Shown here piece by piece: positions 1,737 through 5,248 of a stretch of DNA of 5,248 nt. Within the stretch, counting starts at the first letter, position 1; each line of letters starts with the position of its first letter. The notes beneath the pieces are model-generated. The model was not told where the DNA came from, ran no database searches, and saw only the letters and a list, made by a program, of their open reading frames with translations. The DNA is from Acidobacteriota bacterium. GTDB lineage: Bacteria; Acidobacteriota; Vicinamibacteria; Vicinamibacterales; UBA8438. The position numbers and the translations under genes were made by a program. Where the stretch lies: NCBI GenBank assembly GCA_011523485.1, contig WTGR01000254.1:1-5248 (forward strand), in the 5' to 3' direction.

Positions 1737-2783
1737 TTACCGTGGGCGGGTCAGGTACGGCCGGAGATGCCAGTCGAAGAAGGTCCAGATCCGGTTCCAC
1801 GAATCGCGCTGCTCGGGGCTGTCGACGCGCCGGTAGCCGCGATCCCGATCGACCCGCCGGTTGAACCGGTGGCCGCCGCCGAACCGGTCTATCGGCGGGT
1901 CGCGGTAGATGCGCGTCTCCGCCAGATCCGGCTTCAGGTACTCGAGCGCGTGGATGAGCTGCTGCGCTTCCTCGAAGTTGACGTCCCGGTCGTTGTCCGC
2001 GACGTGGACGAGCAGCGGCGTCTGCAGCTTGTCGACGTGGTAGAGGGGTGAGCGGTCGACGTAGACGCCGCGCCGCTCGTGCACCGGGCCGCCGATGCGT
2101 TCCTGGGCCACGAAGTGCCGGGCGTAGCGCGGGCCCTTGTAGGAGAGCCGGAACACGAGGTTGGTCACCGGCACCATCGCCGCCGCGGCCTTGAACGAGG
2201 CCTGGTCGCGGAACACCGAGTGCAGCGTGATGAACCCGCCGTGGCTCCAGCCGATGATGCCGAGCCGCTCGAGGTCGACGTGCGGCAGGTGACGGCGCAT
2301 GTAGTCGACCGCGGTCAGACAGTCGTCCACCTCGTAGCCGCCGTAGTCGATGGCGTGGTGGTGCGCCCGGCCGTAGCCGGTGCTGCCGCGGTACTCGGGG
2401 GCCAGGACGACGTAGCCGCGGGCCACCGCTTCCCGGATGAACGGGAAGTAGGTGGGGTCGAGGTCCCCGTGCACGCCGCCGTGAATCCAGATCAGCGCCG
2501 CGTGGGCCCGCGGTCCCCGCAACTGCAGCGGCTCGAAGAGGTAGAACGGAATGTCGAGGCCGTCGACCCGGCTCTCGTACGAGAGCTTCCTCATGCGCAG
2601 GACGCCGTCGCTGAGCCGGCGGAATGTCCGGTCGCGCTCGCGTTTGCGGTTGCGGTCGAGCTCGTAGCGGTCCACCGCGGACTGGGCGGCGGCGGGGGCT
2701 GCCGACCCGGCCGCGATCAGCAGGCACGCCGCGAGCACCAGGAAGCGCGCCGTCCTCGAGGCAAGGGATGTCGGGCTGGTCAC
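1737..2783 (-). CDS. Secreted S9-type alpha/beta hydrolase (prolyl oligopeptidase-like)
   Basis: A 348-aa alpha/beta hydrolase matching the catalytic domain of the S9 prolyl-oligopeptidase / dipeptidyl-peptidase clan, without the beta-propeller. The N-terminus is a signal peptide: Arg9 and Arg13, a hydrophobic core at about 14-25, and a likely cleavage after AAA33. An LAAC sequence at 17-20 resembles a lipobox but lies too early in the core to favour a lipoprotein. Core motifs are HGG (101-103, oxyanion region), APEYRGSTGYG (128-138, a hallmark of S9 proteins) and GWSHGG with nucleophile Ser180. Likely acid is Asp265 (DRDV) and likely base His305 (GGGHRF). It probably acts outside the cytoplasm as a peptidase or esterase; the substrate is unknown. 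The GTG start at 2783 is chosen because the signal peptide begins there and a -10-like TATGAT lies exactly where a leaderless start would need it. The frame is open further upstream into the duplicated hisC fragment, but that part is not coding-like. It lies downstream of hisC on the same strand. Confidence 0.88.
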   Translation of the reverse strand: MTSPTSLASRTARFLVLAACLLIAAGSAAPAAAQSAVDRYELDRNRKRERDRTFRRLSDGVLRMRKLSYESRVDGLDIPFYLFEPLQLRGPRAHAALIWIHGGVHGDLDPTYFPFIREAVARGYVVLAPEYRGSTGYGRAHHHAIDYGGYEVDDCLTAVDYMRRHLPHVDLERLGIIGWSHGGFITLHSVFRDQASFKAAAAMVPVTNLVFRLSYKGPRYARHFVAQERIGGPVHERRGVYVDRSPLYHVDKLQTPLLVHVADNDRDVNFEEAQQLIHALEYLKPDLAETRIYRDPPIDRFGGGHRFNRRVDRDRGYRRVDSPEQRDSWNRIWTFFDWHLRPYLTRPR

Positions 2784-2789
2784 GCCGTC

Positions 2790-2795
2790 ATCATA
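2790..2795 (-). promoter_or_regulatory. Candidate -10 box, hydrolase (leaderless start)
   Basis: Minus-strand TATGAT (2795 to 2790) matches the -10 consensus at five of six positions. Six bases separate it from the GTG at 2783, so the predicted transcription start is the first base of the start codon. No Shine-Dalgarno precedes the GTG, consistent with leaderless translation. No convincing -35 is visible. An identical copy lies at 3290-3295. Confidence 0.45.
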
Positions 2796-2797
2796 AA

Positions 2798-2811
2798 CCG
2801 GCCATCGCCGG
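2798..2811 (-). other. Small hairpin between the hisC-fragment stop and hydrolase promoter
   Basis: CCGGC-GATG-GCCGG on the minus strand forms a 5-bp GC stem with a 4-nt loop, followed by TTTAT. It lies about 20 nt after the stop at 2831. It could weakly attenuate readthrough from upstream, but the stem is short and the T-run only three bases. It recurs at 3298-3311 behind intact hisC because of the 500-bp duplication. Confidence 0.25.
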
Positions 2812-2830
2812 ATTGTGCCGCGGCGACCGG

Positions 2831-3283
2831 TCAGGGCGCCAGATCCGCGAGCGCCGACAGCAGCCTCGTGGTCTCGTGCTCGGTGCCGACGGTGATCCGC
2901 AGCTTGTCGGCCAGCCCCGGATCGGCGAAGTAGCGCACCAGGACGCCGCGCTCCCGCAGCCCGTGGTACAGCCGGCGGGCATCGCCGTCGGCGGGCCGGG
3001 CCAGCACGAAGTTGGCCTGGCTGGGCCAGATCCGGAACCCGCGGCCGGCCAGCGCGCGGCCGAGCCGGGCCCGCGTCCCGCGAATTCGTTCGACCGTCTC
3101 GCGCGTGTAGGCGACGTCGCGAACGGCCGCGGCGCCCACCGCGGCCGCGACCGCGTCGACGTTGTAGCGGTCCACCGCGGACTGGGCGGCGGCGGGGGCT
3201 GCCGACCCGGCCGCGATCAGCAGGCACGCCGCGAGCACCAGGAAGCGCGCCGTCCTCGAGGCAAGGGATGTCGGGCTGGTCAC
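2831..3283 (-). pseudogene. Chimeric ORF: hydrolase signal peptide fused to HisC C-terminus
   Basis: A 150-aa ORF created at the duplication junction. Residues 1-40 (VTSPTSLASR to SAVDRY) equal the hydrolase N-terminus including its whole signal peptide. Residues 41-150 (NVDAVAAAVG to LADLAP) equal HisC residues 240-349. The join falls at a Tyr codon within GCTAC and is in frame. The piece keeps the HisC small C-terminal domain, including the LRITVGT arginine, but lacks everything that binds PLP: no Lys210, no DEAY, no NPNSPSG. It cannot transaminate. It inherits the -10 box TATGAT (3295 to 3290) and the GTG start, so it may be expressed, with a HisC fragment of about 117 aa sent to the export pathway. 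That fragment would probably misfold or be degraded. Best read as a by-product of duplication, either a nascent fusion or, if the repeat is an assembly error, not a real gene. Confidence 0.75.
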
Positions 3284-3668
3284 GCCGTCATCATAAACCG
3301 GCCATCGCCGGATTGTGCCGCGGCGACCGGTCAGGGCGCCAGATCCGCGAGCGCCGACAGCAGCCTCGTGGTCTCGTGCTCGGTGCCGACGGTGATCCGC
3401 AGCTTGTCGGCCAGCCCCGGATCGGCGAAGTAGCGCACCAGGACGCCGCGCTCCCGCAGCCCGTGGTACAGCCGGCGGGCATCGCCGTCGGCGGGCCGGG
3501 CCAGCACGAAGTTGGCCTGGCTGGGCCAGATCCGGAACCCGCGGCCGGCCAGCGCGCGGCCGAGCCGGGCCCGCGTCCCGCGAATTCGTTCGACCGTCTC
3601 GCGCGTGTAGGCGACGTCGCGAACGGCCGCGGCGCCCACCGCGGCCGCGACCGCGTCGACGTTGTAGC
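3164..3668. repeat. 500-bp tandem duplication, copy 2
   Basis: Identical to 2664-3168. Homology ends at 3668, where 3169 is g and 3669 is t. GTAGC occurs at the left end (2664-2668), at the junction (3164-3168) and at the right end (3664-3668), the signature expected of a duplication through 5-bp microhomology. This copy supplies the true 3' end of hisC; its hydrolase start region is orphaned and feeds the chimeric ORF. Confidence 0.97.
3290..3295 (-). promoter_or_regulatory. Duplicated -10 box driving the chimeric ORF
   Basis: Exact copy of the TATGAT upstream of the hydrolase, six bases before the GTG at 3283. If the parent element is a promoter, this one should transcribe the chimera and could read on into the hydrolase. 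Confidence 0.38.
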
Positions 3669-4380
3669 TGTCCTTCACCTTGGCCAGCCCGGACAGCAGG
3701 TCGGGATGGGCGATGCCGAAGCCCAGCCGCAGCCCGGCGAGCCCGTGGCTCTTGGACAGCGTGCGCAGCACGATGACCCGGTCGTTCCTCCGGACCAGGT
3801 CGAGCGCGGAGCCTTCGGCGAACGCCACGTACGCCTCGTCGACCGCCACCACCCCGGCCGTGCGGTCGGCCAGCTCCGCGAGCTGTTCGATCGTGGCCGC
3901 GGTGCCGGACGGGCTGTTGGGGTTGGCGACGATGGTCAGCGCCGCGCCGGAATCCGCCAGCGCATCCACGGGGAGCGTGTACTCCTCGTCGAACGGCGCC
4001 TCCAGCGCCGGCGCGCCCTGGATGGCCGCCAGGGTGCGGTACAGGACGTAGGTCGGCGCAGGATATGCGACCGCCCGGCCGGCGCCGGTGACGGCGCGGA
4101 AGAGCATCGTCAACAGATCGTCGCTGCCGTTGCCCACCAGGATCCATTCCGGATCGACGCCCAGGACCTCGGCCGCGCTCCGCCGGAACGTGTCGGCGAA
4201 CGGTTGGGGGTAGCGGCGCAGGCTCTCTGCGTCGATGGCGCCGAGCGCGGCGAGCGCGCGCGGGCTGGGCGGGTACGGGTTCTCGTTCGTGTTCAGCTTG
4301 ACGACGTCGACGCCGCCGGGCGGTTGCTCGCCCGGCGCGTAGGCGCGGAGGACGTCGATGGCTGGACGGAAGCGTGTCAT
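3331..4380 (-). CDS. hisC: Histidinol-phosphate aminotransferase
   Basis: A 349-aa class I/II aminotransferase, close to the usual HisC length of about 350. HisC converts imidazole-acetol phosphate and glutamate to histidinol phosphate and 2-oxoglutarate in histidine biosynthesis, in the cytoplasm, with PLP. Landmarks are LNTNENPYPPSP (29-40), the HisC N-terminal signature; GNGSDD (84-89); ANPNSPSGT (152-160); DEAY (181-184); TLSKSHGLAGLRLG with PLP Lys210; and LRITVGT with Arg328. All catalytic residues are intact. The ATG at 4380 gives the family-typical N-terminus. The frame stays open to 5100 upstream, but that is antisense to the VWFA gene. No Shine-Dalgarno is evident. No other his genes are in the window, so a broader role (for example aromatic or other amino-acid transamination by a HisC-like enzyme) is possible. 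The last 112 codons or so lie in copy 2 of the tandem repeat; the gene is undamaged. The hydrolase was probably its immediate downstream neighbour before the duplication. Confidence 0.92.
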   Translation of the reverse strand: MTRFRPAIDVLRAYAPGEQPPGGVDVVKLNTNENPYPPSPRALAALGAIDAESLRRYPQPFADTFRRSAAEVLGVDPEWILVGNGSDDLLTMLFRAVTGAGRAVAYPAPTYVLYRTLAAIQGAPALEAPFDEEYTLPVDALADSGAALTIVANPNSPSGTAATIEQLAELADRTAGVVAVDEAYVAFAEGSALDLVRRNDRVIVLRTLSKSHGLAGLRLGFGIAHPDLLSGLAKVKDSYNVDAVAAAVGAAAVRDVAYTRETVERIRGTRARLGRALAGRGFRIWPSQANFVLARPADGDARRLYHGLRERGVLVRYFADPGLADKLRITVGTEHETTRLLSALADLAP

Positions 4381-4432
4381 GGGGCTCGGATCGGAACGAT
4401 ACCAGTCGGCGGGCGCGTGCGGCCGGAAGCCG

Positions 4433-4446
4433 CGCAGTATACTGCG
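4433..4446. promoter_or_regulatory. Perfect 14-bp palindrome; candidate bidirectional -10 element
   Basis: CGCAGTATACTGCG is its own reverse complement. It contains TATACT on the plus strand (4438-4443) and the same hexamer on the minus strand (4441 to 4436), each a five-of-six match to the -10 consensus. Predicted starts are about 4450 toward the VWFA gene and about 4429 toward hisC, leaving a 49-nt hisC leader. No clear -35 is seen on either side. It could instead, or also, be a dimeric-regulator operator. A second hisC -10 candidate, TGGTATCGT (extended type), lies at 4404-4396. Confidence 0.45.
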
Positions 4447-4488
4447 GAGATGCCTGTTGGAACAGCGCCTGGAGCGTCCACCGGAGAC

Positions 4489-4500: not shown

Positions 4501-5248
4501 ATGATTCGTTTCGCTGTCGTCGTCGCGGTGTCGGTTCTCCTGGTCGTTCCGTCCGCGGCGGGAGCCCAGGCTCTCGGGCAACTGTTCATCGAGGTGGTCG
4601 ATGGGGCGGGGCAGTTCGTGCCCGGCATGACGCCGGCCGATTTCGTGGTGCGGGAGGACGGCCGGGAGGCGGGGATCGTGTCGGCCGAGCCGGTGGCGCC
4701 GATGAAGATCGCGTTCATGGTCGACAACGGCGACCGCATGGTCGAGATGAACGCGCTGAACGCCCTGCGGAACGGGATGCAGGGGTTCCTCGAGGCCGTG
4801 CCGCCGCCGCACGAGATCTCGCTGTTCACGATCGGCAGGAACATCCAGCGGCGGGTCGATTTCACCACCGACCGCGGCGAGCTCCAGCGGTCGGCCGGAG
4901 AGATCTTTCTGGACCGGGGCGCAAGCGCCGTCGTGCTGGACGGCATTCGCGAGACCTGGGAGCGCCGCTTCGAGGACGACGAGCCGTTCCCGGTGTTCGT
5001 GATGGTGCTGACCGACGGTACCGAGGGGAGCGGCAACTACAACGAGAACGAGTACGTGGAGCTGGTCAACGAGTTGATCACGAACGCGATAACCGTCCAC
5101 GTCGTGCTCCTGTCGTCGCGCGGCGGCAGCGTCATCAACCAGTACGCGCTCAACCTGACCCAGAACACCGGCGGCATCTACGAGAACATCGCGGCGGCGA
5201 CCGGCATCGAGCAGATGCTGGTGAGCATCGCCGAGCGCATGAACGCCC
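4501..5248 (+). CDS. Secreted VWFA-domain protein, acidobacterial type (3' truncated by window)
   Basis: The first 249 residues are visible, with no stop before the right edge. Residues 1-22 form a signal peptide (MIRFAVVVAV core, AGA before the likely cleavage at 22/23). Residues 28-60 match the N-terminal segment of the 'VWFA-related Acidobacterial domain' family: a beta strand (LFIEVVDGAG), then PGMTPADFVVREDG. A von Willebrand A fold starts at KIAFMVD (69-75) and includes the strand VFVMVLTDG (165-173). The metal site (MIDAS) looks degenerate: the usual DxSxS is D75-N-G-D-R79, the threonine loop reads GASAVVLDG (140-148), while Asp172 of LTDG is kept. Such proteins are exported and probably mediate protein contacts; the partner is unknown. 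The gene is divergent from hisC, with a possible shared promoter at 4433-4446. The family call is from motif memory; the VWA fold is the firmer part. Confidence 0.82.
   Translation, partial: MIRFAVVVAVSVLLVVPSAAGAQALGQLFIEVVDGAGQFVPGMTPADFVVREDGREAGIVSAEPVAPMKIAFMVDNGDRMVEMNALNALRNGMQGFLEAVPPPHEISLFTIGRNIQRRVDFTTDRGELQRSAGEIFLDRGASAVVLDGIRETWERRFEDDEPFPVFVMVLTDGTEGSGNYNENEYVELVNELITNAITVHVVLLSSRGGSVINQYALNLTQNTGGIYENIAAATGIEQMLVSIAERMNA

Follow-up and report, generated by a model that had tools for sequence, protein, structure and literature searches.

The locus analysed here raises the question of whether a perfect tandem repeat across the boundary of two genes is a real duplication, and what such a duplication does to the genes on its two sides. 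We compared the window (the whole 5,248-nucleotide stretch of Acidobacteriota DNA that was analysed) with itself at every shift. Positions 2664-3168 and 3164-3668 are identical at 505 of 505 sites with a period of 500, and the identity claimed by the original prediction was reproduced without a mismatch. The 505-bp match is made up of a 500-bp unit and 5 bp of junction homology, and far exceeds the agreement expected by chance. As had also been claimed, the self-comparison finds GTAGC three times, at the left edge (2664-2668), at the junction (3164-3168) and at the right edge (3664-3668). The sequence across the junction is GTTGTAGCGGTCC. Besides shift 500, 20-mers are shared within the window at shift 43 only. 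Copy 1 of the unit (2664-3163) contains the start of a hydrolase gene and the terminal (3′) part of hisC, separated by a spacer of 47 bp; the hisC gene that is intact takes its 3′ end from copy 2 (3164-3663). The GTAGC at 3164-3168 is common to both breakpoints, as seen in the self-match and in the alignment to relatives of the same genus. With two adjacent copies in direct orientation, the structure matches a microhomology-associated tandem duplication. The original prediction further stated that a new sequence is inserted between the two genes. However, all inserted bases are copies, and the novelty is confined to the junction. Two features were not part of that prediction: the duplicated piece contains an in-frame fusion ORF, and the contig contains another perfect tandem duplication.

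Both genes are encoded on the minus strand, and the hydrolase gene is downstream of hisC. The hisC gene (3331-4380) encodes an intact histidinol-phosphate aminotransferase of 349 amino acids (Aminotran_1_2, 5.5e-58), the full-length relatives of which are 94-97% identical. The hydrolase gene (1737-2783) encodes an intact, secreted-type S9/BD-FAE alpha/beta hydrolase of 348 amino acids (Peptidase_S9, 1.9e-31), and its full-length relative P0119 is 98% identical. Because the full-length relatives of each protein have the same length, neither gene was broken by the duplication. This bears out the earlier statements that copy 2 completes hisC, that copy 1 completes the hydrolase gene and that no gene is lost. 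Because the two genes share one strand and the unit starts in one of them and ends in its neighbour, the frames of both outer genes stay complete, and the next ORF is again preceded by the 47-bp spacer.

The closest relatives of the window belong to the Acidobacteriota. They were reached from a distant Acidobacteria locus (L001) through searches of the phylum, then of the order of the best genome and then of the genus. In the phylum search, HisC was detected at E <= 1e-100 in at least 4 of 396 genomes. The order search detected HisC in 26 of 162 genomes, two of which match at 95%; L083, a 27th locus, is a paralogue that lacks the HisC C-terminal domain. Duplications aside, the window is colinear over the locus with all four genomes of the genus. 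In each of these genomes, a single main match to the 500-bp unit is present (97, 94, 77 and 76% identity), and the other matches are only 27-45 bp long. The distance between fixed anchors is 1005 bp in the window, compared with 516, 505, 505 and 506 bp in L109, L110, L111 and L112, respectively. The HisC C-terminal domain is single in 26 of 26 order-level loci, although most of these span about 4 kb and a distant second copy would escape view. It is also single in 9 of 9 larger loci, a set that overlaps the order-level loci, and in 80 of 80 loci from genome_contigs, which are the best 80 of 588 confirmed and have a top identity of 62%. Thus, the comparison with related genomes suggested in the original prediction gives a single copy in all four genomes of the genus. 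Because the relatives have a single copy and the nearest is 97% identical, the duplication is derived and recent. The 516-bp segment of L109 carries a 10-bp insertion in the spacer between hisC and the hydrolase gene, which resembles a small tandem duplication.

GTAGC is present at both breakpoints in three of the four genus relatives (L109, L110 and L112). In L111, it is present at one of the two breakpoints, and the left one reads GTGGC. Because both breakpoints carry the word in single-copy relatives, the homology predates the event. The probability of a homology of at least 5 bp at random breakpoint pairs is 0.0125 in the window and 0.0112 in a genus sample; over all positions at distance 500, it is 0.0130. 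Because a homology of 5 bp or longer is found at only 1.1-1.3% of random breakpoint pairs, microhomology-guided strand switching, either in the cell or in vitro, would be a good guess for the mechanism. The unit and L110 differ at 15 of 505 sites, whereas copy 1 and copy 2 do not differ at all. From these counts, the event would be younger than about one fifth of the L110 split (exp(-15 x 0.2) = 0.05), an estimate that assumes a clock and ignores gene conversion.

The fusion ORF (2831-3283, minus strand) encodes 150 amino acids and connects the first 40 codons of the hydrolase gene in frame with HisC residues 240-349. Residues 41-150 of the chimera are the last 110 residues of HisC, and the Tyr at the junction is common to the hydrolase and HisC. 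With the 5′ part of one gene, the 3′ part of its neighbour and both parents intact, it has the structure of a boundary-spanning chimeric gene. In the chimera, the Pfam match to the aminotransferase profile is confined to the last profile positions (236-361 of 361). Because the chimera begins after HisC residue 239, it has neither the large domain nor Lys210 of the SKSHG motif, which we take to be the PLP-binding lysine. Thus, the two features that mark an active aminotransferase, the PLP-binding lysine and the large domain, are absent from the chimera. The 40 hydrolase codons include a likely Sec signal peptide, as judged by eye. In the AlphaFold model (mean pLDDT 78.9, pTM 0.60), the HisC part has block-mean pLDDT values of 81-96 from residue 51, and the N-terminal 40 residues have values of 37-54. 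Among solved structures, the best relative is the histidinol-phosphate aminotransferase 3hdo.

In the protein database, the identical fusion is present as P0001, a predicted protein of 135 amino acids from a later start, on one 5248-bp contig, a length equal to that of the window; its cluster has 2 member sequences. No other such fusion was found among 14 examined of 117 further database matches. These 14 include all seven matches with a query coverage of more than 80%; the coverage of the others is at most 77%, near that of the HisC part alone (73%). A degenerate pattern of the junction had no match in genome_contigs and one in the window, which served as the positive control. A separate database entry, P0002 (on an 8274-bp contig), is a 121-amino-acid C-terminal fragment of HisC, which starts 11 residues before the Tyr of the window's junction and may reflect a contig edge, a frameshift or a rearrangement. 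No sigma-70-type promoter was found in 2600-4450, and hence none that would belong to the chimera itself. Two weak terminator-like hairpins are present, one in each copy (0.4 expected). When boundary-spanning duplications were simulated, an in-frame open fusion was obtained in 33% of 16,125 cases. Because the open frame is a one-in-three accident, no selection or function need be inferred. The chimera is likely an inert by-product.

We propose, with a probability of roughly 0.5, that the structure arose by one recent 500-bp tandem duplication in a single lineage of an uncultivated Acidobacteriota population. In this process, strand switching or sister-strand end joining would have linked two GTAGC words at a spacing of 500 bp. 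The outer genes would have kept their complete frames, and the ORF between them would be a by-product in which a likely signal peptide is joined to HisC's small C-terminal domain and the PLP-binding lysine is missing. Given the missing lysine, this ORF is probably enzymatically inert and near neutral, and the two-copy structure should revert to one copy by RecA recombination.

The repeat may instead be a sequencing or assembly error. The second copy may have been made in vitro, by template switching during amplification or as a nanopore tandem artefact, or by the joining of untrimmed overlapping pieces in the assembly; we place this explanation somewhat short of an even chance. It would account for the period of exactly 500, the identity of the copies and the single-copy state of all relatives examined. 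Moreover, the same 5.2-kb contig contains a second perfect tandem duplication of 43 bp x 2 (1644-1729; the self-match is 1644-1687 with 1687-1730), which crosses the stop codon of an aminotransferase gene (399-1670); the stop codon in copy 1 keeps this gene intact. Both relatives aligned, L109 and L110, have one copy of the 43-bp unit. In the genus sample (60 stretches from the four genomes of the genus), only 2 perfect tandems with a unit of at least 40 bp (60 and 107 bp) were found in 974,503 bases; among the 824,812 bases of 80 other loci, such units were found only as multiples of a 7-bp microsatellite. At the genus rate, the probability of a second perfect tandem in 5.2 kb is about 0.011, but this rate may be too low, since the stretches come from contig starts of draft genomes, in which tandem copies may be collapsed. 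Exact P0001 is found on one contig, whereas the identical HisC (P0239) is found on two, the longest of which is 28,332 bp. This comparison is of contig counts alone, and gene calls on the 28,332-bp contig might differ; it hints at a single-copy form within the same species or at an error in the doubling. In a report on nanopore libraries, artefactual tandem sequence, most of it in PCR libraries, is described, including a case stitched into an assembly (PMC10589936). A study of vertebrate assemblies describes false chimeric genes that false duplications can produce (PMC9516828). For this contig, a nanopore artefact would presuppose nanopore reads. The ORFs around the duplication are undamaged, which speaks against an error. 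Plain concatenation of overlapping pieces would not predict the 5-bp homology at the joint (P of about 0.012), whereas strand switching in vitro would also give it. The origin by microhomology or slippage put forward in the original prediction therefore stands in part: the duplication is derived, the homology existed before it and the parents are intact, but the period of 500, the second tandem and the absence from the relatives examined would also suit an in-vitro or assembly origin.

Selection for the duplication, either because the chimera is a functional exported HisC-domain protein or because expression of the hydrolase is tuned, seems very unlikely. The in-frame fusion, the likely Sec signal seen by eye and the pLDDT of 81-96 for the HisC domain from residue 51 are consistent with a functional protein. 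However, the frame would be open by chance in one of three cases, and the copies have no sequence divergence. Furthermore, neither the 14 examined of 117 further matches nor the junction pattern in genome_contigs gave another such fusion, and the promoter search in 2600-4450 was negative. Equally improbable is a real, reversible population variant in which the small domain of HisC, provided with the signal peptide of the neighbour, would be a new exported protein under selection, caught before divergence. Close tandem copies can be homogenised, and an older duplication held identical by gene conversion is conceivable in principle. We consider this extremely unlikely, because the duplication is absent from all four genomes of the genus and unequal exchange is as likely to delete a copy.

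The recent duplication that we favour is of a kind that is already known, and the locus is a new example of that kind. As in the Drosophila yakuba duplications (PMC5460883), the unit brings together the 5′ end of one gene and its neighbour's 3′ end. In the Fig. 2 example of that report, the chimera shows a change in transcript level that is not seen for the transcripts of the parents. Unlike those duplications, the present one is bacterial, involves neighbours on one strand, is 500 bp long, is found on one contig and is known from sequence alone. The duplications of Acinetobacter baylyi share with it a joint at 0-5 bp of common sequence and the direct orientation, but their amplicons are 12-290 kb and were selected (PMC9997567), whereas here the unit is 500 bp and no selection is known. 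In an Escherichia coli construct, a 9-bp microhomology is described at the duplication borders (PMC11111574). The nanopore artefacts (PMC10589936) are comparable in that tandem sequence that the real genome lacks can enter an assembly; they differ from the present case, which has just two copies and intact surrounding frames. If the duplication is real, it would be a snapshot of a two-gene tandem duplication that adds a chimeric ORF at no cost to the parents, with the ancestral state, the breakpoints and the homology all readable from relatives. If it is not real, database proteins such as P0001 can stem from duplicated sequence in single contigs. A plasmid origin was rejected, as the window had no match in the plasmid collection (near mode). 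In viral_contigs, HisC has 1 distant relative (57%).

Elsewhere in the window, the alignment with the relatives' loci does not extend to positions 1-64. Next to this stretch, positions 72-94 contain a dispersed REP-like repeat, CGAGCCnGCGAGGCGTTTCGGGG, which is also found in L158 (19561-19674) and in contigs C25 and C27 of G513. In the four genus genomes, 11, 29, 94 and 119 matches with at most 2 mismatches were counted, and the control gave 0 in each. The repeat in several relatives belongs to a hairpin, CCGAAACGCC...GGCGTTTCGG, and some pairs of the repeat are 105-107 bp apart. At the other end, positions 4501-5248 contain a secreted-looking ORF without a Pfam match at 0.001. In relatives, a second stretch, which is 72-75% similar, adjoins the counterpart of this ORF.
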